Of a stretch of DNA of 64,000 nt, positions 736 through 55,084 are shown piece by piece. The DNA comes from a virus. Location: positions 1 through 64,000 of IMG/VR virus record IMGVR_UViG_3300002138_000190. The stretch is one strand, 5' to 3'. Position 1 is the stretch's first letter. Every line of letters starts with the position of its first letter. The position numbers and the translations under genes are program-made. The notes beneath the pieces were generated by a model. The model worked only from the letters and a program-made list of their open reading frames with translations, searched no databases and had not been told where the DNA came from.

Positions 736-972
736 TTATGGGGTTGTTGGTTTTAGTTCCTGTTTCTGCAATTCTCTTTGTTCAGCAATGTTTCTTTCTG
801 ATTCTTTTGTTAAATTGTGCTGAGCTTCTATTTCTACTCTGCATCTTTCAATTTCTTCTTCCAATTCAATTATTCTAATTTCTTTAGCTTGAACAATTGA
901 CAATGCAATAAGTTTAGAGTATTCATGCTTTTTTATGACATATTCTCTAGATTTTGTATTTAAGTCAGCCAT
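736..972 (-). CDS. Small coiled-coil protein
   Basis: A 78-residue protein rich in Glu, Lys and Arg. A heptad-like segment spans residues ~28-70 (VQAKEIRIIELEEEIERCRV), predicting one long alpha helix or coiled coil. It lies 13 bases upstream of the repeat protein at 722 on the same strand, so the two are probably co-transcribed. It might be a small virion or chaperone-like partner of that protein. I do not recognise a family. Confidence 0.65.
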   Translation of the reverse strand: MADLNTKSREYVIKKHEYSKLIALSIVQAKEIRIIELEEEIERCRVEIEAQHNLTKESERNIAEQRELQKQELKPTTP

Positions 973-1029: not shown

Positions 1030-2391
1030 ATGATTAATGATTTAACTCAAATTCACAATGTTAACAAATTGTTGATTTCTCAAGAAAGATATTCTGAGGC
1101 TGAATTTTTTTTAAAAAATTTAGCTTATGAATCATTGCAAATTTTGGCTGCAATGTACAATCAGTTGGGTGACTTTAAATTAGCTGAAAAAAATTATTTA
1201 TTAAGTGATCAAGTTATTCCTCGGCATTGGCAGACTCACACAAATATTTGTGATACTTTATATAAGCTTAAAGATTTCAATGGTGCAGAAGAAAATATAA
1301 AACTTGCTTTGGAATGTCCTGAAGGATACAAGCAAGAAGTCATATACAATTTAGCAGTAATACAATCTGAGTTTCACAAAACTAACGAAAGTATGGAAAA
1401 CTACAGAAAGGTTTTTGAAATTAATCCAACCAATTATGTTGCACAATATAATTATGGTTGTGAATGTTTGAAAAATAATTTATTTGAAGAGGGTTGGAAG
1501 TATTACGAAAGTAGATTTGCTGCATTTGAAAGATTAAATAACTTACGAAAAGTTTTCAAGAATATTCCAGATTGGAATGGGGAAAGTTTAAAAAATAAAA
1601 AAATTATTTTGTATAACGAACAGGGAACAGGAGATTTAATTCAGTTTTTAAGGTTTGCTAAAATATTAAAAGAACAAAAAGCAAAAATTTTAATAACTTG
1701 TGATTCATCATTTAAAGAGATAATTGATCATGTTGATTTCGTGGATGAAACTATTTCTGATCAGTCAGAAATAGATAAAAAAACAAAAAATTATGATTAT
1801 AAATGTAGTGTTGCAAGTTTGCCTTATTATTTAAAAATAAATAACAAGAAGCAATTAGAATGCAAAAAATACATTGACATAAAAGAAAAATTTAAAATAA
1901 AGAAAAGTAAAAATAAAAAAATAGGAATTGTTTATGCTGGTAGTGGCAATCACACTTATGATTGGAGAAGGTCGATATTTTTTAGTAAACTTAAACCTTT
2001 GGCAGATTTGCAAAAATATGATTTTTATGTGCTACAAAAATTTACTGAAAGAAAAAGAAAATGGATGAATGTTGTTGTAGATCCATTTGATGTTCCTCTT
2101 TATGAAAATTGGGTTGATTTATCTAAAAATTTAACAAGTTATTATGATACTGCATGTGTTATTAATTCTCTTGATTTAGTTATAACTGTTGATACATCAA
2201 TTGCTCATTTAGCTGGTGCTATGAACAAGAAAACATGGTTGTTGCTTGATTATAATAATGATTGGAGATGGGGATTAACATCTGATAAGACTTATTGGTA
2301 TCCATCTTTAAAAATATTCAGACAAAAAAGTTTGAATTATGAATGGAATGAAGTGATTCAAGAAGTTAAAAAAGAATTAGATGATTTTTAA
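1030..2391 (+). CDS. TPR-glycosyltransferase (GT9/OGT-like architecture)
   Basis: A 453-residue protein. Residues ~1-155 form tetratricopeptide-like helical repeats. Residues ~165-450 match the glycosyltransferase domain found in many bacterial TPR proteins: EQGTGD at 197-202, a GIVYAGSGNH turn near 298, RRSI, and the C-terminal signature DLVITVDTSIAHLAG near 385 followed by a DWRWG motif and FRQ. The family transfers sugars from nucleotide donors, and a TPR region plus a GT-B domain recalls O-GlcNAc transferase, where TPRs hold protein substrates. The neighbouring methyltransferase on the opposite strand overlaps its last 15 bases. A paralog lies at 10574-12052. Donor and acceptor are unknown; modification of virion proteins or host surface glycan are both possible. 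Confidence 0.8.
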   Translation: MINDLTQIHNVNKLLISQERYSEAEFFLKNLAYESLQILAAMYNQLGDFKLAEKNYLLSDQVIPRHWQTHTNICDTLYKLKDFNGAEENIKLALECPEGYKQEVIYNLAVIQSEFHKTNESMENYRKVFEINPTNYVAQYNYGCECLKNNLFEEGWKYYESRFAAFERLNNLRKVFKNIPDWNGESLKNKKIILYNEQGTGDLIQFLRFAKILKEQKAKILITCDSSFKEIIDHVDFVDETISDQSEIDKKTKNYDYKCSVASLPYYLKINNKKQLECKKYIDIKEKFKIKKSKNKKIGIVYAGSGNHTYDWRRSIFFSKLKPLADLQKYDFYVLQKFTERKRKWMNVVVDPFDVPLYENWVDLSKNLTSYYDTACVINSLDLVITVDTSIAHLAGAMNKKTWLLLDYNNDWRWGLTSDKTYWYPSLKIFRQKSLNYEWNEVIQEVKKELDDF

Positions 2392-3177
2392 TTTAAGTTC
2401 AGCAATATCAGTTTCTTTTATTTCAACTTCTTGAGGAACACAAAACAAATTCAAGCTTATGAATGTTGTTCCCATTTCTTTTATAAAAATATCTTCTCTG
2501 CATGCATAAAAATTATTTTGATTGAAAAATGCTGGATTGTGCTGGTAGATTTTATAATTAAGTTCATTTTTGATAAAATCAATTAAATCTTTTGATTTTT
2601 CTGCTCTGTCATTTTCAACATACAGATAAGGTTTATCGTTTAAAATCTTTACTTTTCCACCTTTGAGCACATTCAATTCCATACCTTCAACATCTATTTT
2701 AATAAAAGAACATTTTTTAGGAGTAGAAATTAAATCAAGTGTTGTTAAATTTACTGTATAGCCTGTTTCTACTTTTTCTTCTAAGTTTAATTGAATTCCA
2801 CCATGATTTTGAATTTCTTCGTGATTGTATTCTGGAATATTTATAGCTCCAGAATTTTCTCCTAATGCATATTGAAAGCAATGAACATTAGTTAAATTGT
2901 TAATTGCCATGTTCCCACAAAGAGTGTAGAAATTATGTCTTTCTGGTTCTAACGCAATAACAAAACCACTCTTAGTAGTTAATCTAGAAAAAAGGGTTGT
3001 GAACGATCCAATGTTTGCACCAACATCAAATACTGAATCACCTTCCTTGATGAATTTTTTATATAAAATTGCTTCTTCTTCTGAATATTCACCAAAATTT
3101 TCAAAAGATTTTCCTTGGTAAATATCTTTTCTATTATAAATCATTAATCCATATCGACATCGTTGTATTGTATTCAT
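2377..3177 (-). CDS. FkbM-family methyltransferase
   Basis: A 266-residue SAM-dependent methyltransferase of FkbM type. The SAM-binding motif I is VFDVGANIGSFT (~residues 50-61), followed by an acidic ALEPERHN motif II and the family hallmark FIKIDVEGMELNVLKGG. FkbM enzymes O-methylate sugars and other small groups, so it plausibly caps glycans made by the neighbouring TPR-glycosyltransferase. It is convergent with and overlaps that gene by 15 bases. It sits just downstream of the structural gene at 3190-3795 (12-base gap) and is probably in the same transcript. Confidence 0.85.
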   Translation of the reverse strand: MNTIQRCRYGLMIYNRKDIYQGKSFENFGEYSEEEAILYKKFIKEGDSVFDVGANIGSFTTLFSRLTTKSGFVIALEPERHNFYTLCGNMAINNLTNVHCFQYALGENSGAINIPEYNHEEIQNHGGIQLNLEEKVETGYTVNLTTLDLISTPKKCSFIKIDVEGMELNVLKGGKVKILNDKPYLYVENDRAEKSKDLIDFIKNELNYKIYQHNPAFFNQNNFYACREDIFIKEMGTTFISLNLFCVPQEVEIKETDIAELKLKII

Positions 3178-3189
3178 GCTTTAAAATAG

Positions 3190-3795
3190 TTAAACTGTAG
3201 AATTTTTATATCCCAATAAAGTGCCTTCGTAGTTTGCTGCTGGAGGGTTTCCCCCAAAAGTAGAAAGCAATGAACAAGTAATTTTAATCTGATATCCAGA
3301 TGGCAATTTTAAAATTGGAATTGGAAATTGCATGTTGTGGTTTAAGTTAGAAGCATTAGTTCTAATTGATAATAAAGTAGTTTCTAATAGGGATAAATCA
3401 TAATATTTTACTTGATAGATTGCTGGTAAATCACCACTCACACTAAATCCATTGAAATTAAATACGGAATCTACAGGAACAATATAAGAAACAAGTGTTG
3501 TTGAACTTATAATTACATTTGTTATACTTGAAAAAATTGGTATTAAATTAGAAACATAAGGAATATTTCTTGTTGCTATGCCATATTCACATCCTTCAAC
3601 ATGATCATTGATTACACTTGCAATATCTTCAGCATCTTCGCCAGCTATTACTGTTCTAGCTCTATGCCTTAATTGCGTAATTGGGCCAGGGCCAATTGGA
3701 TAGTCAACTTTCGTTTCATCCATGATAGAACCGCCAGAGCCAAGGTTAAGCTCTGTGAATGTTGATTTTGTAGTAATTGGGGTATTGTTGCACAT
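3190..3795 (-). CDS. Hypothetical virion-type protein
   Basis: 201 residues, with a Cys-Asn-Asn start, then Thr/Ser/Gly-rich and beta-strand-rich sequence (for example VVVSYIV-like and LPSGYQIKITCS stretches). The composition is that of the other structural proteins here, but no family is recognised. A run of CTTTTT before the start gives AAAGAAAAAG on the coding strand, a possible weak ribosome-binding site. It is likely transcribed with the FkbM methyltransferase downstream. Confidence 0.6.
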   Translation of the reverse strand: MCNNTPITTKSTFTELNLGSGGSIMDETKVDYPIGPGPITQLRHRARTVIAGEDAEDIASVINDHVEGCEYGIATRNIPYVSNLIPIFSSITNVIISSTTLVSYIVPVDSVFNFNGFSVSGDLPAIYQVKYYDLSLLETTLLSIRTNASNLNHNMQFPIPILKLPSGYQIKITCSLLSTFGGNPPAANYEGTLLGYKNSTV

Positions 3796-3843
3796 AATTT
3801 TTTTCTTTTTCTTTTTCTTTTGCTTTAAAATATATATTTTATA

Positions 3844-4929
3844 ATGAGCAAAAATTTAAACGATATATTTTGTAAATTACTTCCTTATAAAAAAGAAAAT
3901 CTTTTTTCTGTATTATCTAGTAGGCAAGCTATAGGTTGGCAAATTAAATTATTCAATGTTCCAGAATTATGGCAGTTTTCTCAAGGTGATAATGTTAAAA
4001 TAGCAGTTTTAGATACTGGTATTGATTTAAATCATGAAGATTTAAGGGAAAACATAGTTGAAGGTAAGAATTTTGTTGATTTGAGTCAATCCCCCTATGA
4101 CAAATGTGGACATGGAACTCATTGTGCAGGAATTATAGCTGCAAGTAACAATGATATTGGCATAGTAGGTGTAGCTCCAAAAACTAAAATTATGCCTGTG
4201 AAAGTTTTGGATGATAACGGCAATGGCAATATGGAATCTGTTTTAAAAGGATTGCAATGGGCAGGAGAAAATGGAGCAGATTTAATTTGCATGTCACTTG
4301 GAACACCAGAACCAATTGAAGAAATTAGAAAAGAAATACAAAACTTAGTTGCAAATAAAATTATTGTTTTTTGTGCTGCTGGCAATGCTGGCAATACAGA
4401 AAATTTGCTTTATCCAGCAGCATATTCTGAAACAATATCAATTGGTGCAATTGATGAAAATTGTTTAAGGGCAGATTTTAGCTGCACAGGCCCAAATTTA
4501 GACTTTATTGCACCAGGAGTTAAAATATATAGCACTATACCTGAAAATGCATATTCTTTTATGTCTGGAACTAGCATGGCTTGTCCATTTGCAGTTGGAG
4601 TTGCTGCTTTAGTTTTATCTTCAAAGCGACAATATGAAAAAAATATAAAATTAACTGCTGATGAATACAGAGAAATATTTAAAACCCATGCATTGCCAGC
4701 AAAAAACATAGACAAGCTACTGACTAATAAAGGCCCAAGATTTTGGCAAGGGCTAGGAATTATAAACCCATCAGAATTTGTTGATTGGGTTACACAAAAA
4801 AATGTAAAAGAGATTAAACAGAAAATTACAGATTTGTATGATTTTGTCGAAAAATTTACAGAAAAAGAATTATTGAAAACTCTTCATGAAGAGAAAAAAA
4901 TGTTAGATTCATTGCTTAATAATTTTTAA
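3844..4929 (+). CDS. Subtilisin-like serine protease (S8)
   Basis: A 361-residue S8 peptidase with the complete triad: Asp57 in AVLDTGI, His93 in GHGTHCAG and Ser244 in SGTSMACP. The oxyanion Asn181 is in AAGNAGN. No signal peptide or long propeptide is visible; the catalytic domain begins after ~45 residues and ends near 300, with a charged helical tail (~310-361). A cytoplasmic or virion-associated processing or host-directed protease is likely. It is single-gene, flanked by divergent and convergent neighbours. Divergent spacing to 3795 is 48 bases of mostly A/T, with no Shine-Dalgarno. Confidence 0.9.
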   Translation: MSKNLNDIFCKLLPYKKENLFSVLSSRQAIGWQIKLFNVPELWQFSQGDNVKIAVLDTGIDLNHEDLRENIVEGKNFVDLSQSPYDKCGHGTHCAGIIAASNNDIGIVGVAPKTKIMPVKVLDDNGNGNMESVLKGLQWAGENGADLICMSLGTPEPIEEIRKEIQNLVANKIIVFCAAGNAGNTENLLYPAAYSETISIGAIDENCLRADFSCTGPNLDFIAPGVKIYSTIPENAYSFMSGTSMACPFAVGVAALVLSSKRQYEKNIKLTADEYREIFKTHALPAKNIDKLLTNKGPRFWQGLGIINPSEFVDWVTQKNVKEIKQKITDLYDFVEKFTEKELLKTLHEEKKMLDSLLNNF

Positions 4930-5344
4930 GGTACTCTTTTAACTCAGAAATTATTTCTTCTTTGTCTTTTATTTTTTCTAAATCTTTTAACACACAAGCA
5001 ACTAAAGCTGATTTATGGTGAATTCCAAGAGGAATTTTACTAAAATTTTCATCTTTTAAATTTTGACAATTTTGAATTAATATTTTTATTTCATCGTAAA
5101 AAAATGAATAACATAATGGACAACCAATTTTAGATTGTTGAATTATTTCAAGTAAATTAATGTCACAATTAGGACATTTTTTATTAATTGTACTTTTAGA
5201 AAGCATAAGTTGTTGAGGCAATTTATTGGTTAAACAGTTCAAACAACACAAACTACTTTTAGTTTGGCCATTTTCTAGTATGTTTTCCACTAAAATATTT
5301 TTTATCTCATTGCAAATAGTTTTATCATAAAAGCAAATATTCAT
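4916..5344 (-). CDS. McsA-like zinc protein
   Basis: 142 residues with CxxC knuckles: CCLNC near 33-37, CPNC near 57-60 and GCPLCYSFF near 74-82. The GCPLCY...F pattern, a following helix and an IHHKSA turn resemble McsA, the zinc-binding activator of the protein-arginine kinase McsB. It ends in a Glu/Lys helix that could correspond to McsA's UvrB/C-like tail. No McsB-like kinase is seen in the window. Its start overlaps the stop of the IPT/RCC1 gene by four bases (ATGA), so translation is probably coupled. The McsA assignment is by motif only. Confidence 0.5.
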   Translation of the reverse strand: MNICFYDKTICNEIKNILVENILENGQTKSSLCCLNCLTNKLPQQLMLSKSTINKKCPNCDINLLEIIQQSKIGCPLCYSFFYDEIKILIQNCQNLKDENFSKIPLGIHHKSALVACVLKDLEKIKDKEEIISELKEYLKNY

Positions 5345-8235
5345 TTTTCTACTACCTCATAATTACCATTTATGATTAAATTACAACCATCATTTTCAAC
5401 TGCTATTGTATTAGGATAAATAATTCTTCGCAACCATATTGCTAAAAAGTCACCAGGATTTAACAAAGGTAAATAAACTGGAGATGAAATGGGGGCATCA
5501 TAAAATGTTATTGATGTTGGTTCTCTATCTGCTGTTAAAATTTTACTTGCAACAATGTTTATTGGCCCTCCTTCAACATTTTTTATGATAGAAATACTTG
5601 GTAGTGGTGTTAAAGTATATCCATCAAGAACAAGTAAGGGATGCGATTTATAACCAGCAGATCCATTAAAGGTAATTTCAAAAATAGAATTGAAATCATT
5701 GGAGCTTCCTGAAACTGTAACATTTTCTAATCCTTCTACCTTTGTAATCGAATAATTAAAATTATAAAGCCATATAGAAAAATTTGTATTGTAAATCACA
5801 GTAAAAGGTTTTTCATCATAAGAAAAAACAATTTCTTGCCCATTTGTAAAAGGGCCATTCAAAATCGTAATGCTTTGTATTTCATTAACAAAATTAAATC
5901 CTAAATCTATAACACTACCTAAAAAGAAGTCATTAAGAGACAGATATAAATAATAAATTTTATTTGAAGATGTGTTCTTTAAAAAAATACATCTATAATC
6001 AGTTAATCCTTCTGAATAAAAAGTACCTTCTACAGAATTGAAAATGTTGTTTTTCCCAACATTAACAGTAACATTGCTAGATTCCCCACCTAAAGATTTT
6101 TTTGGGTCGGTATTGTTTAGACCCCCAGAATAAAAAAACTTAGCAAACGCATTTAGTTTTTGTCTTACAAAAGGATTTGCGGTTGTTGTTGTCGTTGTTG
6201 GTGCTGTTGTTGTTGTTGTTGTTGTCGTTGTTGTCGTTGTTTCTGGAGAAAATCCAAAAACAGTATAACTGCTTATGCTGCTTACATTATCTAGATTCCA
6301 GTTTAAAGATGAATTGTTTTCTTGGGCATAGTCATAATTATAAATTAACAAAGGTGTGTAACTAGTAGAGAATTTGTTTGCTGGTATGTATTTTTGAAAA
6401 CTTTTACCACTAGGAAATCCAAAATATAAGTCAACTGTGTAATTTGAAATTACTTCTATGCTTGCTGATTCCCCAGCAAAATTCATATGAAAACTTATTT
6501 GCCCATATGAGTTATTATCATAAGATATATATGAAGTAAATCCACCAAGTGGCAACAAGGAAATTGCTTGATTAATCGCATTTACAATGCTTGTGTTCTT
6601 AACAGGCTGATTGATTATATATTCACTATCATTACTAAGATCTATAGAAAATGTTTGCACTATATCATTTATTGAATTATTAGAAGTGCCAGAAAGTATA
6701 ATTGTAAAAGTAATTATAGGGCCATTAGATATCACATAAGAACTTTGAGGTGGAATAACACCATTGCCGTATATCACATAAGATTGTCCAATTAAAATAA
6801 GACCATTACCGCTTGACCCCACATAAATAGAATCAGGAAATCTTGTATTTAAAGATTCTATTTTAGCTGGCAATAAATAATCTGGAACTCCATTGCCAAT
6901 AGAATTAATATAGCCCCATGCATATAAATTGCCATTAATTCTTGTTCCATATGAAAATGTATTTGATGCAAAAACTTTAGCCCAATCATCAAAAGGTTCT
7001 ATTTTTACAAAACTATTAGTAGAATTTGGTGTTCCATTGCCAAGTTGATAGTTTGAGTTTAAACCGAGTGCATATAATTTTCCACCATCTCTTATAGCTA
7101 AAAGGTGACTGTTTGTGCATGTGATATATTCCCAGTCAGAAAATTCAGACCAATTTGTAGGAATTGCTCCAAGGTAAGCCCCCCAAGCATATATTTCTCC
7201 ATTTTCTCTAAGTGCAAAAGAAATTTGCATCCCACTACAAATCATTTTCCAATCATTGTATAAAGTTATTGGGCCTTGTATGCCTGACCAACTGCCATTG
7301 TTGTTTCCTAATTGTCCTCGACTGTTAGATCCCCAAGAATAAAGCAATCCATCTTGTGTTATTCCTAAACTATGATCATGCCCAATTACTATTTTATCCC
7401 ATCCTTGACCATTTGGAGCATAAATTCGATTTGATTGACTACTGTAAATTGGAAGGTTATTGATAAAATTTCTTATCCAATTGTCATAGTTGTTTGATCC
7501 ATAAAGTGGAACATAATTAAATATGTTGGAGCCGAAGGCTCCTAGTCCTAATTTGTCAGCAAAGTTATCTCCCCACAAATATGCATTTCCTGGTTCATTT
7601 CCAAATATTGCAACATGGCTTAATCCATTTGTGTAAACATATTTGCAATCTAAGTTATTAAGCTTTTTGTATGGTTTATAATTTGGATTTATGTCAATGT
7701 TAGGTTCTTGGCCAGATTCATAAAGATAAGTTCCACTATTATTATCACCTATTATAAAAAGAGAAACACTTCCTCCAGATGATATGCCTTTACAGTTCTT
7801 GTAAGTAATTGGACTATTGTAATTGTAAAAAGGATCAACATTTTTTATTAGGTTTGGATAAGAAGTATTTGTGCTTGTTTGTATTCCAAAGCTGCCTAGA
7901 TTGTTATTACCCCATGCGTACAAGCTAAAATTTTCTAGGATTGGTATTGGTGTTGTCGTTGTCGTTGTTGTTGGTTCTATTGTAGTTTTATAGGTGAAAA
8001 CATTGGGATAATAAAAAGCTATATCCAGTTCTTTAATGTAAAACAATGCAACAAGACCTTCTGAGTGTTCTGTTGTTACTGCTGTTATAGTGTTAGAGTC
8101 TACAACTATAACATCTGTGCAAAAAGAATTATCTAGGGATAAGTTTGAAATTGATGTAAAACCTGATCCTGTTATTGTTATTGGTGTGCCACCAGTTGTC
8201 AGGCCATAATTTGGTGTTATGTATGGAATTGTCAT
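5341..8235 (-). CDS. Large IPT/TIG + RCC1-repeat virion protein with Thr tracts
   Basis: 964 residues. An IPT/TIG Ig-like domain occupies ~1-85 (GGTPITITGSGF). A Thr tract (~89-96) leads into RCC1-type blades over ~100-480, with repeated LYSWGSNSRGQLGN, IYAWGAYLG, LYALGLNSNYQLGN and LYAWGYINSIGNG signatures. A beta-rich middle and a second Thr tract with TAPTTTTTT (~665-690) lead to a C-terminal beta-rich region. RCC1 repeats form seven-bladed propellers that bind protein or other partners; on a phage this suggests a surface adhesin or baseplate-associated protein. The Thr tracts are flexible linkers and potential O-glycosylation sites. The downstream McsA-like gene is coupled to it. Confidence 0.8.
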   Translation of the reverse strand: MTIPYITPNYGLTTGGTPITITGSGFTSISNLSLDNSFCTDVIVVDSNTITAVTTEHSEGLVALFYIKELDIAFYYPNVFTYKTTIEPTTTTTTTPIPILENFSLYAWGNNNLGSFGIQTSTNTSYPNLIKNVDPFYNYNSPITYKNCKGISSGGSVSLFIIGDNNSGTYLYESGQEPNIDINPNYKPYKKLNNLDCKYVYTNGLSHVAIFGNEPGNAYLWGDNFADKLGLGAFGSNIFNYVPLYGSNNYDNWIRNFINNLPIYSSQSNRIYAPNGQGWDKIVIGHDHSLGITQDGLLYSWGSNSRGQLGNNNGSWSGIQGPITLYNDWKMICSGMQISFALRENGEIYAWGAYLGAIPTNWSEFSDWEYITCTNSHLLAIRDGGKLYALGLNSNYQLGNGTPNSTNSFVKIEPFDDWAKVFASNTFSYGTRINGNLYAWGYINSIGNGVPDYLLPAKIESLNTRFPDSIYVGSSGNGLILIGQSYVIYGNGVIPPQSSYVISNGPIITFTIILSGTSNNSINDIVQTFSIDLSNDSEYIINQPVKNTSIVNAINQAISLLPLGGFTSYISYDNNSYGQISFHMNFAGESASIEVISNYTVDLYFGFPSGKSFQKYIPANKFSTSYTPLLIYNYDYAQENNSSLNWNLDNVSSISSYTVFGFSPETTTTTTTTTTTTAPTTTTTTANPFVRQKLNAFAKFFYSGGLNNTDPKKSLGGESSNVTVNVGKNNIFNSVEGTFYSEGLTDYRCIFLKNTSSNKIYYLYLSLNDFFLGSVIDLGFNFVNEIQSITILNGPFTNGQEIVFSYDEKPFTVIYNTNFSIWLYNFNYSITKVEGLENVTVSGSSNDFNSIFEITFNGSAGYKSHPLLVLDGYTLTPLPSISIIKNVEGGPINIVASKILTADREPTSITFYDAPISSPVYLPLLNPGDFLAIWLRRIIYPNTIAVENDGCNLIINGNYEVVEK

Positions 8236-8320
8236 ATTTTTTTAATATTCCCTAAATTACTTGTTTTATGCTAAATATTTAATTATAATTAAATATTACT
8301 ATTATTATGGAGATATTCCT

Positions 8321-9118
8321 TTGAAAATAGGTATTAATTCATCTTTTATAATTACTCAATTTGATGAATTAATAAAACCAAAATTTTACTTGGATAAAAT
8401 TCATAATAATTATAACGCTTATGTAGGCTGCGATCAACACACATTAAAATGCGAAATTAATTCTGAAAATGAATTTGATCTTTCTGAAAAAGTATTTGAT
8501 TTAATCAATAATTTAAATGATTCTTTTAAAGATATAGATTGCGAACTTACAAATAAAAAATATTATGAAGTAGATGATTTAGATGAATTTGATGATAAGT
8601 TTCAAAATGCATATGATTTTGAAAGAAAATTTAAAAAATATAGTTTTATTGTAACTAATGGATTTTTAAAAGTTACTGATGATTTGTTTCTTAAAAAAGA
8701 AAATATAAAAATATTTGTTTATTTGTTAGATTTATTCTTGGGAATACCATTTACTTTGATTGACAATGAACAGGGTCAAATCATAAGAAGGCTTTATTAC
8801 AAGTGTGGGGATTATTCAAAATATCAAAATACAATTGAATATAAATTATTAAGTAACAATTGGCTTTTTGATGTGAAAAAAATAAATCTTGTTTATGGAA
8901 TAGTTGAATTTTGTTTTGACTTTTTAAAATCTGAAAAATATAAAAAGTTTTATGAAGTTGAAAATGAAATTGTTTATATTTATGGATATGATTTTAACGA
9001 ATTAAATAATATTATTAATAAATTAAAAGTTGACAAAGCTGGAAGATATATGCGTTTTATTAATAATTTCTTGCCACAAAATCTTTGCAAAGACTTGGAA
9101 AAAATAAAAGCTCCTTGA
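8321..9118 (+). CDS. Amidoligase-like (COOH-NH2 ligase) protein
   Basis: I place the start at TTG 8321, six bases after GGAGAT (8309-8314), giving 265 residues beginning MKIGINSSF. An in-frame TTG at 8261 would add a Tyr-rich leader that is less plausible. The pattern GCDQHTLKCEIN early, then RRLYYKCGDYSK and TIEYKLLSNNWL, resembles the phage COOH-NH2 ligase-type (glutamine-synthetase/ATP-grasp-like amidoligase) family, in which a GADxE/EIR module is followed by R-YGKAGDYR and EYRTLSNFW. If so, it would form amide bonds on a small molecule or peptide. Several acidic positions look degenerate. It ends in a shared terminator with the gene at 9157. Confidence 0.5.
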   Translation: MKIGINSSFIITQFDELIKPKFYLDKIHNNYNAYVGCDQHTLKCEINSENEFDLSEKVFDLINNLNDSFKDIDCELTNKKYYEVDDLDEFDDKFQNAYDFERKFKKYSFIVTNGFLKVTDDLFLKKENIKIFVYLLDLFLGIPFTLIDNEQGQIIRRLYYKCGDYSKYQNTIEYKLLSNNWLFDVKKINLVYGIVEFCFDFLKSEKYKKFYEVENEIVYIYGYDFNELNNIINKLKVDKAGRYMRFINNFLPQNLCKDLEKIKAP

Positions 9119-9139
9119 TGTTATCAAAGAGCTTTTATT
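9103..9139. terminator. Bidirectional rho-independent terminator
   Basis: AATAAAAGCTC (9103-9113) pairs with GAGCTTTTATT (9129-9139), and an inner TTGAT/ATCAA extends the stem. A and T runs on opposite sides let it act on both convergent transcripts (genes ending 9118 and 9157). It overlaps the stop codon of the plus-strand gene. Confidence 0.75.
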
Positions 9140-9156
9140 AAATTTAATTATTTTTA

Positions 9157-10068
9157 CTATGCGTTTTCTGCATTTTTCATATCTTCTATGTTTTGTGCTT
9201 TTTGCATTTTTGCCATAGCAATATTAAGATGTTTAAGCATCATTTGCTTTATGCTAGGAAACTTCATGTTTGGGTTTTGATTTTGATATGTGTGGTAAAG
9301 ATTTGTAAGACTCATTATTGCAAGGTTTTTTGTTTGGGCAGTACCTTTTACTCCTGCATTATCTGCTCCAGCTAGAGTAGCTAATTTTATAGCTCTTCCA
9401 TAAGTCTCATTAACTTTTTTAGCTTGACCACCAACACTTCTGTAATTATTTTCTTCATTGACATTATTTATGCCATCGTAATTACCTTCAAAAAACTTAG
9501 GGTCATACATGGAAGCAACACTTTTTTTCCATTCATCTAAAGTTGGAATGCTAGAAAAACTAGTATTTCCTTCTTCCATGTAATCACAACTTTTTTCAGC
9601 TTTCATACATTTCTTCTTTCCTTTACTTGAATTTTTTTTATTTTCTTCTACATGATGATGATTATGATGATGATTTGTATGGTCTTCATCGTCTTCATCG
9701 TCTTCATCGTCTTCATCGTCTTCATCATCTTCGTCATCTTCGTCATCTTCGTCATCTTCAATGTCTTGCATGTCTTCTTCATCATCTTCAATGTCTTCTT
9801 CATCATCTTCAATGTCTTTTACATCTTCATCATCTTTCATTTCATCTTCCATTTCATCTTCATCTTCTGTTGGAATTTCATCACCCATCCAGTTAGGAGC
9901 AGAATTTTCTGGATAGGAATCACCTAGAGTTCTGAATGAGTTTACATCAAAATTGCCTTGGGCAATTGGCCCACCTATAGAATTTGGGGTTATTGGCCCA
10001 CCTAGCACACCTCCGCAAAGTCCAAAATAGCTTTCATTAACTTTTTTCCATTTATCAAAATTTAACAT
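9157..10068 (-). CDS. Acidic internal protein with capsid-targeting-like N-terminus
   Basis: The start is the ATG at 10068, preceded by GGGAGGAATT; a further in-frame ATG at 10080 lies within that ribosome-binding site. 303 residues. The N-terminus MLNFDKWKKVNES has F4, W7 and E12 as in the T4 capsid-targeting peptide. The middle (~70-130) is an Asp/Glu tract with DDE repeats, followed by a His-rich stretch (HHHNHHH) and a Lys-rich segment. The C-terminal ~130 residues are mixed and helical. A packaged, possibly metal- or DNA-buffering internal protein is inferred. Confidence 0.75.
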   Translation of the reverse strand: MLNFDKWKKVNESYFGLCGGVLGGPITPNSIGGPIAQGNFDVNSFRTLGDSYPENSAPNWMGDEIPTEDEDEMEDEMKDDEDVKDIEDDEEDIEDDEEDMQDIEDDEDDEDDEDDEDDEDDEDDEDDEDHTNHHHNHHHVEENKKNSSKGKKKCMKAEKSCDYMEEGNTSFSSIPTLDEWKKSVASMYDPKFFEGNYDGINNVNEENNYRSVGGQAKKVNETYGRAIKLATLAGADNAGVKGTAQTKNLAIMSLTNLYHTYQNQNPNMKFPSIKQMMLKHLNIAMAKMQKAQNIEDMKNAENA

Positions 10069-10101
10069 AATTCCTCCCAAGGGTTATTGTTTATATACTG
10101 T

Positions 10102-10368
10102 TCATTCTTTATTTTTTAAAGCTTTTATTCTTGCTTGTTCGTAAACGCTTCTTCTTAGTATGTTGCTTCGTGTATTTGCCAATGAATTTATATTTACATT
10201 TTGATTTAAAGACATTGGTGTATTGTTAATAGGTAGCTTTGCTGTGTTGTTTTGTTGATTTAAATTTGTATTTTGTATTGGAACAGAAGTTATTCTGGTT
10301 GGTATTGGTGCAGGAGAAAATGGTATTCTTTTATTGCCAGGGCCAGCTTTTTTATTACATCCACACAT
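10102..10368 (-). CDS. Small CGCNK-motif protein
   Basis: 88 residues beginning MCGCNKKAGPGNKR, then Pro/Asn/Gln-rich low-complexity sequence and a basic helical C-terminus (RRSVYEQARIKALKNK). The Cys-Gly-Cys start could bind metal or form a disulfide. Its neighbour at 10378-10563 carries the same CGCNK motif internally. AAGGAG lies just upstream (10374-10379 region on the minus strand). Function unknown. Confidence 0.6.
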   Translation of the reverse strand: MCGCNKKAGPGNKRIPFSPAPIPTRITSVPIQNTNLNQQNNTAKLPINNTPMSLNQNVNINSLANTRSNILRRSVYEQARIKALKNKE

Positions 10369-10377
10369 AATTACTCC

Positions 10378-10563
10378 TTATAGAAATATTTTTCTGTTGT
10401 TTAGTTTATTTATTATATTTTCTTTTTTATTATCAATTTTATTTAATAAAGTTTCATTGTCGATATTTTTGTTACAGCCACATTCATTTTTTGAAATATT
10501 ACGATTTTGATTGATAATATTTTGGTAGTTTGGAAATTTTATTTTTATTATTTTTTTAGACAT
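10378..10563 (-). CDS. Small CGCNK-motif protein 2
   Basis: A 61-residue, Asn/Lys/Ile-rich basic protein with ECGCNKN at residues 27-33, the same motif as the neighbour at 10102-10368 (nine-base gap, same strand). No Shine-Dalgarno is visible, and only 10 bases separate its start from the divergent gene at 10574. Function unknown. Confidence 0.5.
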   Translation of the reverse strand: MSKKIIKIKFPNYQNIINQNRNISKNECGCNKNIDNETLLNKIDNKKENIINKLNNRKIFL

Positions 10564-10573
10564 ATAATTATAT

Positions 10574-12052
10574 ATGGAAACAAAAAAACTAATAGATCAA
10601 GCAATTAAAAAATGCTATGATTACTTGGGAAAAGATAAGTTTCTACATGCTAGAATTATTTCTTCTCAAATAATAAAAATTGATTCTAATTGTCATGATG
10701 CACATATGGTATTGGGGCTATGTTGTTTAAAAGATCAAAATGTTGAAAAGGCAAAAGAATTTTTCTTAAAGTGTTTAGAATGTGAAACTTTAAAAGAATC
10801 TGCATACAATAATCTTTCTATATGTTATTCAAAAATAAAAAAGCATCATGATTCAATAAATTGTATTTGGAATTGTTTAAGTTTAAATTCTACTAAAGAT
10901 TATTATTGGTCACATTTAGCAATGCAATATAAAGAATTAAATTATTTTAGCAAAGCAGATGAATGTTTTGTGAAAGCTTTAGATTTAAATCCAAGTGCAA
11001 TTAATCTTTCAAATTATGCAGCTTTTTTAGGAGATAATGGGGATTATAAAAAAGCAACTTTTTATTTTGAAAAAAGCTTAAAAAAAGATCCAAGTTTTTT
11101 TGGGCCATACATAGATTTATTTCATGTTTATGCATTAAACAATCGTTACTCCCATAAGTTGTGGGATTTTTACGAAAAAAGATTTGATGTTTACAGTCAG
11201 TTGAAATGGGTTAAAGAAAAAAATTTAAAATCTCCTAAAAATATTTTAGAATGTAAAAATAAAAAATGTGTTATTTATTGTGAGCAAGGTATTGGTGATG
11301 GGTTAATGTTTATGCGTTATTTAAAATTAATGCCTTCTTATGTAAAATATGTAATTTCTTGTGAACCTGAAATGAAAAGTATTTTTGAAAAATTAAATGT
11401 AAATGTCATTACAAGCTTAAAGAATAAAAAATTTGATTTTTACATTTCTTTATTAAGTCTTCCTTTTTTATTGAAAAAACCATCTATCCCAAAACCTTTT
11501 TTTCCTATTACTTCTAAAATTAAAAAATTCAATAACAAAATAGGTGTATGTTGGAGTGGTTCCCCTGCTCATGCCTTTGACAAACACAGGTCAATTTATT
11601 TTAAAAAGTTTTATGAAATTTTTAAAAACAAAAACAATTTAGAAATTTTTAGTTTAGTTAAAAATTATTCATGCCGAAAATATGTAGAATCAAATGAAGT
11701 TATTGATTTATCAAGTGGTGCTTTGGAAGAAGATGGATTAATTAACATTGGAAATCACATGAAAGATGTTGAGTCTACAACTAAGATAATTTTAGATAAA
11801 AAAATAAGTTTGGTTATAACTGTTGATACAATGATAGCTCATTTAGCATTAAGCATGGGAATTGAAACTTGGTTGTTGTTGTCTAAAAAATCTGATTGGA
11901 GATGGGGTTTAAAAAATAAAAGTAAGTGGTATGGAAACAATTTAAAAATATTTAGACAGACAAAGTTAGATGAATGGGATGATGTTTTAAATAAAATAGA
12001 GGAATATTTGAGTGAATATTCCTCTATTAAAAAATTAAAAATTAGGACTTAA
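10574..12052 (+). CDS. TPR-glycosyltransferase, paralog of 1030-2391
   Basis: 492 residues. TPR-like helical repeats span ~1-190 with typical A-x-x-F/Y positions (SKADECFVKALDLNPSA). The glycosyltransferase domain spans ~215-480: CEQGIGDG near 237, GVCWSGSPAH, a KHRSI motif, LVITVDTMIAHLA and DWRWG plus FRQ. It differs from its paralog mainly in the TPR region, suggesting different protein substrates or partners for the same chemistry. The start codon is 10 bases from the divergent gene and has no Shine-Dalgarno. Its 3' end overlaps the gene at 12042 by 11 bases. Confidence 0.8.
   Translation: METKKLIDQAIKKCYDYLGKDKFLHARIISSQIIKIDSNCHDAHMVLGLCCLKDQNVEKAKEFFLKCLECETLKESAYNNLSICYSKIKKHHDSINCIWNCLSLNSTKDYYWSHLAMQYKELNYFSKADECFVKALDLNPSAINLSNYAAFLGDNGDYKKATFYFEKSLKKDPSFFGPYIDLFHVYALNNRYSHKLWDFYEKRFDVYSQLKWVKEKNLKSPKNILECKNKKCVIYCEQGIGDGLMFMRYLKLMPSYVKYVISCEPEMKSIFEKLNVNVITSLKNKKFDFYISLLSLPFLLKKPSIPKPFFPITSKIKKFNNKIGVCWSGSPAHAFDKHRSIYFKKFYEIFKNKNNLEIFSLVKNYSCRKYVESNEVIDLSSGALEEDGLINIGNHMKDVESTTKIILDKKISLVITVDTMIAHLALSMGIETWLLLSKKSDWRWGLKNKSKWYGNNLKIFRQTKLDEWDDVLNKIEEYLSEYSSIKKLKIRT
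11995..12028 (-). terminator. Terminator hairpin inside the opposing gene's 3' end
   Basis: A perfect 14-base-pair stem: AATAGAGGAATATT (11995-12008) with its complement at 12015-12028 and a six-base loop. On the minus strand it is followed by TTTATTT, so it suits the gene ending at 12042. It lies wholly within the coding end of the TPR-glycosyltransferase. Confidence 0.65.
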
Positions 12053-26302: not shown

Positions 26303-27181
26303 TTATGGTGGTGGAGCTTCTGTTGTTGTTGGTGCTTCCGTTGTTGTTGGTGCTGCCGTTGTTGTTGGTGCTGCCGTTGTTGTTGGTGCTGCCGTTGTTG
26401 TTGGTGCTGCCGTTGTCGTTGTGCCTATTTGACAGCTTAAATAAATACAAGTTGAAAAATCACCTAAACCGAACCTCTCAATAATATAAGATCCATTAAC
26501 ATCTATAAATGTTCCATTAGGATGATCCATAGTAGGGCAACCAGAAACTGTAATTGTATCCCCTACTGAAAAATTTGGAAGATTGTCAACCCATCCATAA
26601 GAATTATTTGGACTAATCCATAATTGTATGGAGCCTTGTAATGCACTCTCTGGAATATATGTTGTATCTCCTTGCCATCCACTTATAAAAGAAACAAATG
26701 ATTTGCATGAAGACCAACCATCAAAGTATTTATTTGGTTGAATTTCAGGTTCAACTATTACTCCATTAGATGAAGATATTGTAAAACCACTTTGCAATGG
26801 TACATTATACGAGCCACAAAACCATTTAGAAAAAGGTGCACATAGGTTACAAACATAAGCATCATCATCATTTTCAGCAACATTAGGAAAATTTTCATCA
26901 CCGTAATAAATTGTAGCAGGGTCAACCTCATCACCATAGTATACAACTTGGACAGTTCTTTTATTTCTTGGAACATTTAAAACAAGAGATTTGTAAAGAT
27001 TTAAAGCTTCTTTGCCACAACAGGTAATTATGTCATTGTTTTTAACAGGATGAGATATTCCTGCTATATAAAATTCTTGATTTTTTAGTCTATATAAAGT
27101 ATTTTCTAATGTGTCAGGAAGTAAATCCCCAATTATTGATTGTCCTGTAGATACCTTAAATGTAATCATTGGATATGACAT
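26303..27181 (-). CDS. Virion protein with mucin-like TTTAAP tail
   Basis: 292 residues. A beta-rich body (~1-250) with Cys-rich patches (CNLCAPFSKWFC, CKSF, SCQIG) is followed by a C-terminal tract of TTTAAP and TTTEAP repeats ending PPP. The tract is disordered and rich in Thr, like O-glycosylated mucins, and resembles Thr linkers in the 5341-8235 protein. Located directly downstream of the major capsid region on the minus strand, so it could be a head-surface protein. Not assigned to a family. Confidence 0.65.
   Translation of the reverse strand: MSYPMITFKVSTGQSIIGDLLPDTLENTLYRLKNQEFYIAGISHPVKNNDIITCCGKEALNLYKSLVLNVPRNKRTVQVVYYGDEVDPATIYYGDENFPNVAENDDDAYVCNLCAPFSKWFCGSYNVPLQSGFTISSSNGVIVEPEIQPNKYFDGWSSCKSFVSFISGWQGDTTYIPESALQGSIQLWISPNNSYGWVDNLPNFSVGDTITVSGCPTMDHPNGTFIDVNGSYIIERFGLGDFSTCIYLSCQIGTTTTAAPTTTAAPTTTAAPTTTAAPTTTEAPTTTEAPPP
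26318..26420. repeat. 18-base tandem repeat encoding TTTAAP
   Basis: About six copies of GTTGTTGTTGGTGCTGCC-type units in the coding frame of the minus-strand gene. Confidence 0.8.
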
Positions 27182-27600: not shown

Positions 27601-29031
27601 TTACACAATAAAGTTTGCAATGGATAACCTAGCATAAAACTTGCTACCTTCACGCAAAAGTTTCTTACCATAACGAGTAAGAATACCTCGTCTTGGACAG
27701 AAGCTCTCAGGATCAAGAACGGTAGGAGTTTGTGTCAAAGGTACATATGGGCAGTAGAAATAACCGCTATCCATGTAACTATCACCCTTGTAGCCCATCA
27801 ACAACTGATTGGTTGGGAACAATGGGTCTTTATATAATCTCCAGCGATTATTAATCGTACCAACATACTGTACACCTAAAGAAGAGGTGAAAGTTTCAGA
27901 AGGTGCAGGAGCGAAACCAGCAGTTGCGGTTTCAAATACGCTTGCAACTTCAGGGGATGTTACGATAAAATTCGCTCCACCACGAAGAGTTTTACGATGA
28001 ATAACATTAGATACTTCAGTTACCTTAACATATAAGGATTCATACTTTTCTTTAACGGTTTCGCCAAGAGCAGTAGAATAATCCCAAGCTGCAACAGTAC
28101 CAGCATTGTTTCTAAGGTCAGTCAAAATTTCACGATCAATTTCAAGATTGATTTCTTGTGCCAATACAGCTGTCAATTCAGCTTCAGCATCAAGATTGTG
28201 TTGGCTACGAAGATCTTGTTGAGCTTCATAAGACCACACAGCTTTGAGCTTACGAGTCTTAGCAGCAATTTCTTCAGATTCAATAACAAGATTGATTTCA
28301 GGAAGATCCTGATTACATTCCATGTTATATTCATAGCTAATAGTGGTATTATGTGTGCCAGGTGTACCACTCCAAGTAAAGCTAACAAGACCAGTAGCTA
28401 AATCTAAAGTAGCAGCTGTCACAGTTTGTGCTGGCGAGCCAATAGTTACTGGTATAAATACACCATTAGAACTAAAGCTAAAGGTTTGTGACATTGTTCC
28501 AGCAAGATAAATACTTCCAGTAATAGTACCAGCAAGAACTGGTGTGTGTTCTAATACAAAAGTAGTTGCAGCAGCAGCACCAGCATCAGGATGGTTTTCG
28601 TTTTGAACGAATTGGCTACTGTAATAGATGCTCAAGTTAGCAGTACCATCTGCTAATTGTTGCAAACTATTTGCATCATCGCCAGGAAAGCCACCATTGT
28701 TGGAAGCTCCACGGATAGACCCCTTGTTAGAGGAATAACGGAACCTAAGATAGTATACTAATCCTGTAGGCCCAAGAAGGGGTTGTACAGAAACAATTTT
28801 ATTAGCAATTAATTGGGGATAGATTCTTCTAACCAATGGAATGCTAATGCGTTTGAACTGAGCAACATCACTTGTGTCAGTTGAAACTTCGTTAATAAGT
28901 CTTTGGTTCTCAAGAAGCACAGCTGTAGCAGAACGGAGATAACGATCACCGATCCCATCAAGAATGCCAGTTGAGGACCAACGAGATTCGAGTTCTTTAG
29001 ACTCGTTTAAAAATTTTGAAATAGTATTCAT
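27601..29031 (-). CDS. Major capsid protein (T4 gp23-like)
   Basis: 476 residues. The segment LVRRIYPQLIANKIVSVQPL followed by GPTGLVYYLRFRY (~66-98) is the gp23 core signature. By alignment with T4 (FLTE before the mature N-terminus), prohead protease should cut after Glu48 in RLINE-V. The propeptide begins MNTISKFLNES (F7, E10), like the targeting peptides here. Residues ~157-235 are an inserted Ig-like module (EHTPVLAGTITGSIYLAG ... ISYEYN) also present in the protein at 63340. Codon and base composition are less AT-rich than neighbours, fitting very high expression. Confidence 0.93.
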   Translation of the reverse strand: MNTISKFLNESKELESRWSSTGILDGIGDRYLRSATAVLLENQRLINEVSTDTSDVAQFKRISIPLVRRIYPQLIANKIVSVQPLLGPTGLVYYLRFRYSSNKGSIRGASNNGGFPGDDANSLQQLADGTANLSIYYSSQFVQNENHPDAGAAAATTFVLEHTPVLAGTITGSIYLAGTMSQTFSFSSNGVFIPVTIGSPAQTVTAATLDLATGLVSFTWSGTPGTHNTTISYEYNMECNQDLPEINLVIESEEIAAKTRKLKAVWSYEAQQDLRSQHNLDAEAELTAVLAQEINLEIDREILTDLRNNAGTVAAWDYSTALGETVKEKYESLYVKVTEVSNVIHRKTLRGGANFIVTSPEVASVFETATAGFAPAPSETFTSSLGVQYVGTINNRWRLYKDPLFPTNQLLMGYKGDSYMDSGYFYCPYVPLTQTPTVLDPESFCPRRGILTRYGKKLLREGSKFYARLSIANFIV

Positions 29032-42036: not shown

Positions 42037-42558
42037 TCAAATTAAATCATCTCCCCATTTAGATCTTATTTTATCTATAAGTTCTTTTTCCATTCTTTCA
42101 ACACTAGCATTTTTCTTTTGTAATTTTTCTTCATTTACTTTTTTAAGTCTTTCTATACTTCTGATAAAAATAGCTTCAACAGAAGACTCCCATTCTTTTT
42201 CAGGTATGTAAGATAATAAATCATTAGATAATTCATGATATTTAACATATCCTTTATAATAAAGCTTAATTTCATTTTCATTTATTAAGTATTTTATTTC
42301 TAAATGATTTCCCAAGTTTACACCATCATAAAAATATCCTAATAGACAACTTGTATGATCTTCTGAAAATGTTTCAAATTGATTTTTTTCTTCAATATCA
42401 CCATAAACTAAATCTGTTTGATCTCTTCCAAAATAATCTTCAATTATGGAATTCCCAAACATTTGACAGATAATAGATAGTTTGCCTTGTGGCCCGAAAA
42501 AATTTTTATTAAGTGCTAAGGCTAATCTTTGTTCTTTTATTTTATTTTCAATGTTCAT
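42037..42558 (-). CDS. Hypothetical protein, start uncertain
   Basis: 173 residues from ATG 42558; a further in-frame ATG at 42627 would overlap the divergent metalloprotease start. Alpha/beta with a charged C-terminal helix (IRSIERLKKVNEEKLQ). Family unknown. Convergent with the structural gene ending 42034. Confidence 0.55.
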   Translation of the reverse strand: MNIENKIKEQRLALALNKNFFGPQGKLSIICQMFGNSIIEDYFGRDQTDLVYGDIEEKNQFETFSEDHTSCLLGYFYDGVNLGNHLEIKYLINENEIKLYYKGYVKYHELSNDLLSYIPEKEWESSVEAIFIRSIERLKKVNEEKLQKKNASVERMEKELIDKIRSKWGDDLI

Positions 42559-42604
42559 AATAGATACATTAGTAATATTTTTTAAATTTGAAAAAGGAAA
42601 TTCT

Positions 42605-50167: not shown

Positions 50168-50180
50168 CTTGACACTTCTT

Positions 50181-50427: not shown

Positions 50428-51384
50428 CTAAATATTATATTTATCTAGTAATAAGTTTATTTTATCTGTTATTTCTTCTTCTGTAATCATAGTCATGCAT
50501 GGTTTTTGAGGGGTATCATGAGGAATTGGACAATTAAAATAATTCCAACAAGGCCCACCACATGGCCAGTTATTATTTTTTCGGTGTTTTTGAATTAATA
50601 TGCAATCGTAATATTTACAATAAATATCTCCGTCAATATATCCAAAAATACCCAAAAGTGGCTTTTTTAGACCACCAGCACAATGTAGATGACCAGTATC
50701 AACTGATATTACTGCATCTGCTAAGTGATGTGTTGCTATTACATCTTTGAAATTGTTAACAGTTAAAATAGGATAATTTTTATCATAAAGTCTTAAATCT
50801 TTTTGATCGTGAAGAACCAAACAATTTATTTTTATTTTTTCTAAAAAACTAATAATAAAGTTTATTTGAAAATCGGGTAAATCTTTTGCTTGATTTGCTG
50901 AAAAAGGACAAAAAATTATTGTTTTTCCGTTTTTAAATTTTTTAACTTCTTTCATTAATGTTTTCATTTTGTCTATGGATTCTATATTTGGATTCAAATG
51001 CATATTGTGATTTTTCAATTCAATTCCACATTTTTTAGCCCAAATATCACTTCTGTGTACAAAACATTCTTTTTTGTGTACTGATTCATAAGTAATGCAT
51101 ATGTCGCTTAAATTTATTGAATTAATATAATTTTTTCTGTTGATTTTTTCATAATCTATTATTTCATCAACATAGGGATGGCTTGCAATAGAATGGTATT
51201 TAACAGGAATTGCCCAATGAATTGAGAATTCTGGATAAGTTTTTTTAATGTCTTCAAAAATCATTCTCATCATTAATATATCCCCAAAACCTCCTGTTCT
51301 TCTTCGGAACAAAATTTGTTTACTTTTTTTGCAATAATTTTCTAAGTTAATGTCTTTTTCAAAAGTGTTTTTAAATAATGTCAT
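50428..51384 (-). CDS. Glycosyltransferase family 9 (heptosyltransferase-like)
   Basis: 318 residues. RRTGGFGDILMMRMIFED near the N-terminus, HWAIP, then the acceptor/donor regions and DAVISVDTGHLHCAGGLKKPLLGIFG (signature near 232-258), as in ADP-heptose:LPS heptosyltransferases. A Cys-rich C-terminus (CGGPCWNYFNCPIPHDTP) could bind metal. Role: sugar transfer, maybe to surface glycans or phage proteins. Confidence 0.85.
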   Translation of the reverse strand: MTLFKNTFEKDINLENYCKKSKQILFRRRTGGFGDILMMRMIFEDIKKTYPEFSIHWAIPVKYHSIASHPYVDEIIDYEKINRKNYINSINLSDICITYESVHKKECFVHRSDIWAKKCGIELKNHNMHLNPNIESIDKMKTLMKEVKKFKNGKTIIFCPFSANQAKDLPDFQINFIISFLEKIKINCLVLHDQKDLRLYDKNYPILTVNNFKDVIATHHLADAVISVDTGHLHCAGGLKKPLLGIFGYIDGDIYCKYYDCILIQKHRKNNNWPCGGPCWNYFNCPIPHDTPQKPCMTMITEEEITDKINLLLDKYNI

Positions 51385-53897: not shown

Positions 53898-54183
53898 AAT
53901 AACTTTTATGTTTTGTGTCATTTTCTTCAATTGAAAAAATTCCCTTTTTCGTCTTTATTGTTAGAATATTATTTACAGATTCAATTATTGTTCCACCATT
54001 TTTTCTAAAACATTTTGCTATTTCAAATATGTTTCCCTCATGAACTTCTATTTTTTCAATTAAAATTGAAAATTTTATTTTTGAATATACTTTTTCTGAA
54101 ATGTTTTTTTCATTTTCGTTTATGGAATTTTTTTTCAACCATTTGTCAAAACCATCATAAGATAAAAAATTATTGTTGTTCAT
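53896..54183 (-). CDS. Small protein, loosely targeting-like start
   Basis: 95 residues from ATG 54183 (overlapping the upstream gene by 14 bases). MNNNNFLSYDGFDKWLKKNSINENE includes a DGFDKWLKK stretch similar to the packaged-protein signals but displaced. The rest is an alpha/beta domain (EGNIFEIAKCFRKNGG). Uncertain class. Confidence 0.5.
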   Translation of the reverse strand: MNNNNFLSYDGFDKWLKKNSINENEKNISEKVYSKIKFSILIEKIEVHEGNIFEIAKCFRKNGGTIIESVNNILTIKTKKGIFSIEENDTKHKSY

Positions 54184-55084
54184 GAAAATCTTCTTTAAAT
54201 TCCTCTTCATTTATATAGGTTGCATAATAAAAACTTTTATCAATTCCAAAATATTTTATTTTTGTTTCTGGTTTGTTTTTCATAAACCAAAATATATTTG
54301 CGTTGATAATTTCGTCTGCTAGAATTTGTTGAGGATATTGATACATGTTATTTTTTAAAATTGCACCATTTTTATTTTCTTTGTAGCCATCAGAACAAGA
54401 CATTAAGTAAATATTCTTGGCATTGCCATAATAACAATTTATTAAAGCAGCACAAATAGGATTTCTATAATCATCTATGTGCTTTGAATAATCATTTTTT
54501 ATTGGTGCTTGATAATTTTTATTGGGAGTAGAATGATAAACATATAATCCTGCTCCGTAATTGTAATTTTTAAAAAACTCTGGATGAGTTTTAGTACTTG
54601 CCAACAATCTTGGAAATATTCTTTTGTTTATGCTGCTTAAACAATCTTTGTAGGGATTATTTATTACAAAAAGACTTGGCAAATACTTGTTCTTATTCCA
54701 AAGTTTTAGTGAATTGTTTGTTAAAATAATATATGGATTGCGTATTTTTACAGAATTAATTAAATTTAATGTTTTTTCAAATTCAAAACCATCAGATACT
54801 ATAAATACTGTTTTATCAAATAAATTTTCAGCTTCGTAAGTAGAATTCTTGTGATAACTATTGATAATTTCATTATTGATAATCGTACTAATTTCATGCT
54901 CTAAATAAAAATTGTTTAAATCTAAAGCAGAAGCATGGTTTATACCAAAATCTCTTACCCAAATTTTTTTATTATCTGTTAAAGCATATTGATTTCCCGA
55001 ATGATGATTGCGAATTGAAATTTTAAATTTTTCATTTCTTGTTTTTACATGGTATGATTGCAAAACACGGATAGTCTTCTCCAT
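54170..55084 (-). CDS. Possible DUF115/MAF-like glycosyltransferase
   Basis: 304 residues from ATG 55084 six bases after TTGGAG. Strands such as TVFIVSDGFEFEKTLNLI, PYIILTNNSLKLWNKNKYLP and NIYLMSCSDGYKENKNG follow the shape of the DUF115/motility-accessory (Maf) family, which glycosylates surface proteins. Overlaps the upstream fibre gene's end by 53 bases in another frame. Low-confidence family. Confidence 0.4.
   Translation of the reverse strand: MEKTIRVLQSYHVKTRNEKFKISIRNHHSGNQYALTDNKKIWVRDFGINHASALDLNNFYLEHEISTIINNEIINSYHKNSTYEAENLFDKTVFIVSDGFEFEKTLNLINSVKIRNPYIILTNNSLKLWNKNKYLPSLFVINNPYKDCLSSINKRIFPRLLASTKTHPEFFKNYNYGAGLYVYHSTPNKNYQAPIKNDYSKHIDDYRNPICAALINCYYGNAKNIYLMSCSDGYKENKNGAILKNNMYQYPQQILADEIINANIFWFMKNKPETKIKYFGIDKSFYYATYINEEEFKEDFHEQQ

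Follow-up and report, generated by a model that had tools for sequence, protein, structure and literature searches.

Caulobacter FlmG is a flagellin O-glycosyltransferase that joins tetratricopeptide repeats (TPR) to a GT-B glycosyltransferase (GT) domain and binds flagellins through its TPR half; it is necessary and sufficient for flagellin glycosylation if pseudaminic acid is present, and the acceptors in flagellin O-glycosylation are Ser/Thr (PMC7591256). Here we consider two genes of this layout, GT1 and GT2, in the first 64,000 bases (the window) of the 115,879-bp IMG/VR virus record IMGVR_UViG_3300002138_000190. We believe it probable that both encode soluble FlmG-type enzymes that glycosylate surface proteins of the virion, and that an FkbM-type methyltransferase O-methylates the sugar; the virion nature of the acceptor, its identity and the action of FkbM on the sugar are what we infer.

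A sequence-only reading of the window had proposed that the phage O-glycosylates its own proteins. This is still the best reading considering the flagellin-linked homolog, the virion-gene neighbours, the island of sugar genes and the absence of PF01943 and PF02397; the substrates proposed with it found no support. In the mechanism we propose, the TPR superhelix would bind one given structural protein of the phage in the cytoplasm; before or during assembly, the catalytic GT-B domain, GT9-like in kind, would move a sugar from a nucleotide donor to an acceptor Ser/Thr. In the case of GT1, the linked FkbM enzyme would then O-methylate the sugar. Both the host and the phage, through sugar-nucleotide genes of its own, would supply the sugar donors.

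Architecture and catalytic family of the transferases

The open reading frames at 1030 and 10574 had been described as TPR and GT-B paralogs, and the domain matches, the AlphaFold2 model and the alignment (33% identity over 314 amino acids, E 2e-39, mostly in the catalytic half) bear this out. The Pfam matches to TPR are strong in GT2 and slightly below the curated cut-off in GT1; PF01075 (GT9) is sub-threshold in GT1 (20.0 bits vs a cut-off of 22) and has no Pfam match in GT2. The AlphaFold2 model of GT2 (mean pLDDT 92.6) consists of TPR-type helices followed by a GT-B fold. A simple hydropathy scan finds zero membrane segments in GT1, GT2 and the FkbM protein.

The term “OGT-like” from the sequence-only reading suits the TPRs and the overall layout; it does not suit the catalytic domain, which matches GT9 heptosyltransferases. 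The fold search with the full-length GT2 model places SPINDLY and OGT on top, with low TM-scores. In the profile search with the sequence, OGT is matched in the TPRs alone, the match ending where the TPRs end; with the GT domain, the profile search of PDB sequences returns no OGT, and Pfam gives no GT41 family match in GT1 or GT2. When the GT2 catalytic domain was modelled in isolation (pLDDT 86), all 7 fold matches at E <= 0.001 (7/7) were the heptosyltransferases WaaC / RfaF. Membership of the catalytic domain in the OGT family (GT41) is ruled out, since the fold search gives GT9 enzymes only at that threshold and the profile search gives no OGT. The enzymes may work like OGT, yet outside its catalytic family. 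The stand-alone GT9 enzyme claimed at 50428 was recovered (Table 1), while the possible DUF115 assignment at 54170 was not confirmed: the protein has no Pfam match at E <= 0.1 and no informative PHROG, folds not having been compared.

Phages use GT-B enzymes on DNA as well, e.g., the T4 glucosyltransferases. GT-B folds take varied substrates, and the weaker fold matches of the isolated catalytic domain include antibiotic and flavonoid glycosyltransferases, which would agree with a target of another kind (phage DNA bases, peptidoglycan precursors or a small metabolite). However, the TPRs and the linkage to tail genes favour protein acceptors; and no base-hypermodification genes were noticed, although no search aimed at them was made. 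We consider such a target very improbable.

The connection with FlmG is given by a hidden Markov model of viral-only catalytic domains, which matches a Caulobacter TPR-GT with E 5e-42 over 274 of 286 positions; in the Caulobacter genome, the gene of this TPR-GT has three tandem flagellin genes about 1 kb away. At least 578 relatives of GT1/GT2 occur in viral contigs, and many of the phage homologs adjoin tail or virion genes. Cellular homologs are found in Proteobacteria, cyanobacteria, Verrucomicrobia and other bacteria. Close relatives of GT2 and of the 5341-8235 protein were sought in viral contigs, and none turned up.

Table 1. Features of the window discussed in the text
Feature	Coordinates	Strand	Details
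Thr-rich beta-repeat protein, truncated by contig end	3..722	-	divergent neighbour of GT1
Small protein between the Thr-rich gene and GT1	736..972	-	two relatives, 45-48% identity
GT1: TPR N-terminus and GT9-like GT-B domain	1030..2391	+	453 amino acids; motifs EQGTGD, VDTSIAHLAGAM, DWRWGL, FRQ
FkbM-type methyltransferase	2377..3177	-	PF05050, E 7.6e-18, 65.6 bits vs cut-off 22.7; convergent with GT1
Subtilase	3844..4929	+	PF00082; kept in GT2 block of relatives
Chimeric virion-like protein	5341..8235	-	TIG, Thr tract (89-95), RCC1 repeats, Thr tract (666-685), conserved core (700-958)
COOH.NH2 ligase-like protein	8261..9118	+	phrog_3815; kept in GT2 block
GT2: about 5 TPRs and GT9-like GT-B domain	10574..12052	+	492 amino acids; AlphaFold2 model
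Protein with N-terminal anchor and (TTTAAP)n tail	26303..27181	-	beside major capsid gene
Major capsid protein	27601..29031	-	phrog_138
Stand-alone GT9-like protein without TPRs	50428..51384	-	PF01075, 28.4 bits vs cut-off 22
Unclassified protein	54170..55096	-	proposed DUF115

Gene neighbourhoods: FkbM and RCC1

The FkbM methyltransferase proposed at 2377 is well supported by its Pfam match. FkbM is linked to GT1 in the window and in three relatives (G006, G010 and G011). The GT1 orthologs of G006 and G010 have the arrangement of the window, with FkbM on one flank and, on the opposite flank, a Thr-rich repeat gene and the small conserved gene; G011 encodes methyltransferase and GT as a single fusion protein of 735 amino acids. 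Across the viral loci, FkbM genes were counted by their distance from the GT: 15/436 at one step, 5/390 at two and 0/1450 at three to nine, so that FkbM near the GT is one or two genes away, bar one distant case. Seven viral proteins are fusions of FkbM and the GT, with FkbM first in six and last in one. The adjacency pattern and the fusions are strong evidence that FkbM and the TPR-GT act jointly. Their joint function would most simply be O-methylation of the transferred sugar, judging from the general activity of FkbM-type enzymes. We found no account in the literature of phage TPR-GTs with FkbM or RCC1; where RCC1 was mentioned in one paper, it denoted strain numbers of algae.

The Thr-rich gene at 3-722, which the sequence-only reading overlooked beside GT1, is the most Thr-rich of the record (22.5% Thr), and we presume that GT1 has its leading candidate acceptor in the product of this gene. 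We also tried, and abandoned, the rule that genes upstream of the GT are generally Thr-rich: it gave 37/71 at 80% clustering (p 1.6e-13) and 6/31 at 50% (p 0.13). In 24 viral loci of one phage lineage, a Thr-rich “MGRPLKIQK” gene and the TPR-GT are divergent (e.g., L103, 1404-2156, minus strand).

GT2 has a neighbourhood of its own. Its orthologs in four relatives (G006, G014, G015 and G018) sit in a conserved block that also holds the COOH.NH2 ligase-like gene and a gene homologous to the C-terminal 260 residues of the 5341 product; the subtilase is present in 3 of these 4 blocks. Epimerase-like genes are close by in 3 of the 4 relatives, the one in G014 being confirmed as a nucleotide-sugar epimerase and the others being its homologs. 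G018 has a nucleotidyltransferase-like gene, judged by its N-terminal sequence only.

Another linkage concerns RCC1 repeats. An RCC1-repeat tail-like gene lies directly upstream of the GT, on the same strand and with a gap of -31 to +75 bp, in 13 of 152 non-redundant loci, and an RCC1 gene lies directly downstream in 0/153. The reverse search from RCC1 genes finds a GT in 18 of 30 loci, directly downstream in 16. The RCC1-linked GTs form one deep clade (97% local support) that includes the cultured cyanophages S-SRM01 and BUCT-ZZ01. This is a single old association kept over long divergence rather than many independent ones, and we count it once because it belongs to a single GT lineage. A tail-fibre assembly chaperone family is found in 8 downstream neighbours of the GT and often follows members of the RCC1 clade. 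In S-SRM01, and probably in its relatives, a 2-oxoglutarate-Fe(II) (2OG-Fe(II)) oxygenase is encoded downstream of the GT. RCC1 was also considered as a partner of GT1 and GT2, as an RCC1 gene lies between them; however, the linkage belongs to another clade, and the records with GT2 relatives are without RCC1.

A cassette of RCC1, TPR-GT, 2OG-Fe(II) oxygenase, several unclassified genes and again RCC1 is observed in S-SRM01 (L007, 4512-12939) and in cyanophage-like contigs (L329-L333); it suggests both hydroxylation and glycosylation of RCC1 proteins. In L342-L346 a 148-amino-acid gene of the oxygenase's size directly follows the RCC1 gene and the GT is absent, so the two modifications may be separable.

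Taking these neighbourhoods together, we offer a broader proposal tentatively and consider it rather doubtful: the widespread phage TPR-GT9 family would be a modular system of virion-protein glycosylation, in which the TPRs pick a tail or surface protein encoded by a neighbouring gene, FkbM, linked or fused, caps the sugar by O-methylation, and the oxygenase of the RCC1 clade hints at hydroxylation-dependent glycosylation of beta-propeller tail proteins.

Thr tracts, sugar supply and the nature of the acceptor

Tracts rich in Thr, Pro and Ala resemble mucin-type acceptors, and the sequence-only reading proposed the Thr tracts of the 5341-8235 and 26303-27181 proteins as the substrates that GT1 and GT2 glycosylate, each tract being picked by the enzyme's own TPRs. 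The tracts themselves are real: the maximum Thr count per 20 residues is 18 in the former protein and 11 in the latter, attained in 0/1000 shuffles. Both proteins are presumably virion proteins, the 26303 product because its gene adjoins the major capsid gene, and the 5341 product because of its TIG, RCC1 and conserved core with weak similarity to tail proteins. The enzymes and the tracts share one record, and the Ser/Thr acceptors of flagellin (PMC7591256) agree with the proposal.

The relatives argue otherwise. The four that keep GT2 also keep the 5341 core, as a separate gene of 268-279 amino acids without tracts or RCC1, which speaks against both the tracts as substrates and the choice between two tracts by two TPR regions. 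One relative, whose capsid is 99% identical, lacks the 26303 gene; in another relative the N-terminal 84 residues are the same (46% identity) and are followed by a different C-terminus. About 200 viral loci with the GT contain weak Thr-rich stretches only, at most 12 Thr per 20 residues. In the capsid clade (20 records) the GT is found in 7, the record with a periodic tract is not one of these 7, and six-Thr runs occur in few records. At the DNA level the tracts are simple repeats, (GTT)20 at 6182-6241 and 18 bp x 5.6 at 26322-26421, in linker or tail positions; in the 5341 protein they join TIG to the RCC1 repeats and these repeats to the core. A role as linkers and tails explains the tracts better. 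Co-occurrence and synteny argue against them as a common substrate, and their role as the dedicated substrates of GT1 and GT2 is quite unlikely, although they may still be modified where present. T4-like capsid-targeting N-termini were also considered; the 8 observed vs 3.5 +/- 1.85 expected are not convincing.

A further point overlooked by the earlier reading is a sugar-nucleotide island at about 86-110 kb of the record (G000; L004, L005), outside the window. It has a UDP-galactopyranose mutase, RmlD-like and other epimerases, aminotransferases of the LegC/PseC/RfbH type (DegT), a NeuD-type acetyltransferase, WbqC, GT2-type transferases, sulfotransferases and dioxygenases. None of the island proteins has more than one membrane segment in a simple hydropathy scan. 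Two other proteins of the island, one with leucine-rich repeats (about 103.7 kb) and one radical-SAM-like (about 100.3 kb), were placed by their N-terminal sequence only.

WbqC, the mutase and the RfbH/LegC-type genes are typical of O-antigen loci, and the GT9-like catalytic domain belongs with a family best known for lipopolysaccharide (LPS) heptosyltransferases. Both facts agree with a role at the host surface, where the enzymes would act on glycans of LPS, O-antigen or capsule so as to mask receptors or exclude superinfection, FkbM and the island serving the same end. Against this, the TPR arrays and the flagellin-linked homolog indicate protein acceptors, and tail or virion genes accompany many of the homologs. 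The flippase PF01943 and the initiating transferase PF02397 are absent from the 10 records searched (control genomes were positive), though the host could supply them. We consider the modification of host glycans unlikely, and prefer the glycosylation of virion proteins.

Several points weigh against the reading we prefer. The virion acceptor is deduced, and GT9 enzymes classically act on LPS. A TPR-containing capsule synthase, 8qoy, is also among the full-length fold matches. The Caulobacter match is probably FlmG, to judge from genus, domain order, size and flagellin synteny. The RCC1-linked clade excludes GT1 and GT2, and the enrichment of Thr-rich genes upstream of the GT is due to the one “MGRPLKIQK” lineage and fades at 50% clustering. 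LR756511, the nearest published huge phage (75% capsid identity), has no match to the TPR-GT family, so the function is optional. Finally, an O-antigen role would suit many of the island genes too, and whatever it still lacks could be provided by the host; host-glycan modification thus retains some weight.

The virus and its comparison with known systems

The virus, from a lake, belongs to a large-genome lineage of tailed phages. The record encodes a T4-type portal, terminase, prohead protease and a gp25-like baseplate protein. LR756511, to which the capsid of the window was compared, is an uncultured huge phage of 595 kb, and related capsid genes occur in contigs up to 532 kb; the record may be a fragment. 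A DNA-level similarity search among phages gave no match.

Some other features of the window deserve mention. The T4-type portal protein (35364-37904, minus strand) has an intein, with Intein_splicing and LAGLIDADG matches in the window protein set and the insert visible in the reading frame. The window proteins match Volactin (PF25216, E 4.3e-60) and MreB, and the likely gene of this actin-like protein by sequence is 49160-50197 (minus strand). A repetitive protein at 55032-57443 (minus strand), with DNA repeats of 30-36 bp encoding “PSIISF”-type motifs, is a possible fibre. Two proteases are encoded, a likely M36/M4-type metallopeptidase (42482-44176, plus strand) and the subtilase (Table 1).

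How O-glycosyltransferases choose their acceptors is an open question, and many phages appear to carry compact, long-diverged pairs of an enzyme and its partner in adjacent genes. Such pairs, including those of the cultured cyanophages named above, make acceptor choice directly testable. If our reading is true, sugar-coated tail proteins bear on host recognition, on phage ecology and on how the immune system recognizes phages; fusions with FkbM would then be ready-made two-step enzymes that add methylated sugars to proteins.

Comparing with known systems, the phage enzymes share with OGT / SPINDLY (GT41) a TPR superhelix N-terminal to GT-B, but in both fold and sequence their catalytic domain resembles GT9. 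With WaaC/RfaF of GT9 they share the catalytic fold (TM about 0.6) and a DTxxxHLAG-type motif; they differ in the extra TPRs, the weak sequence similarity and the virion-gene neighbourhoods. Virion glycosylation in mycobacteriophages is reportedly the subject of Freeman et al. 2023, as cited in PMC12691614; glycosylation of virion proteins is established in some phages, although these are different phages. In common with FlmG of Caulobacter crescentus, the enzymes are soluble and have a TPR N-terminus and a GT-B C-terminus (PMC7591256). In contrast to FlmG, they are linked or fused to an FkbM methyltransferase, and a NeuB-type gene is not among the families listed for the phage sugar island. 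Where the phage enzymes have the motif VDTxIAHLA, the matched flagellin-linked Caulobacter protein has PSNASSCLA at the same place.

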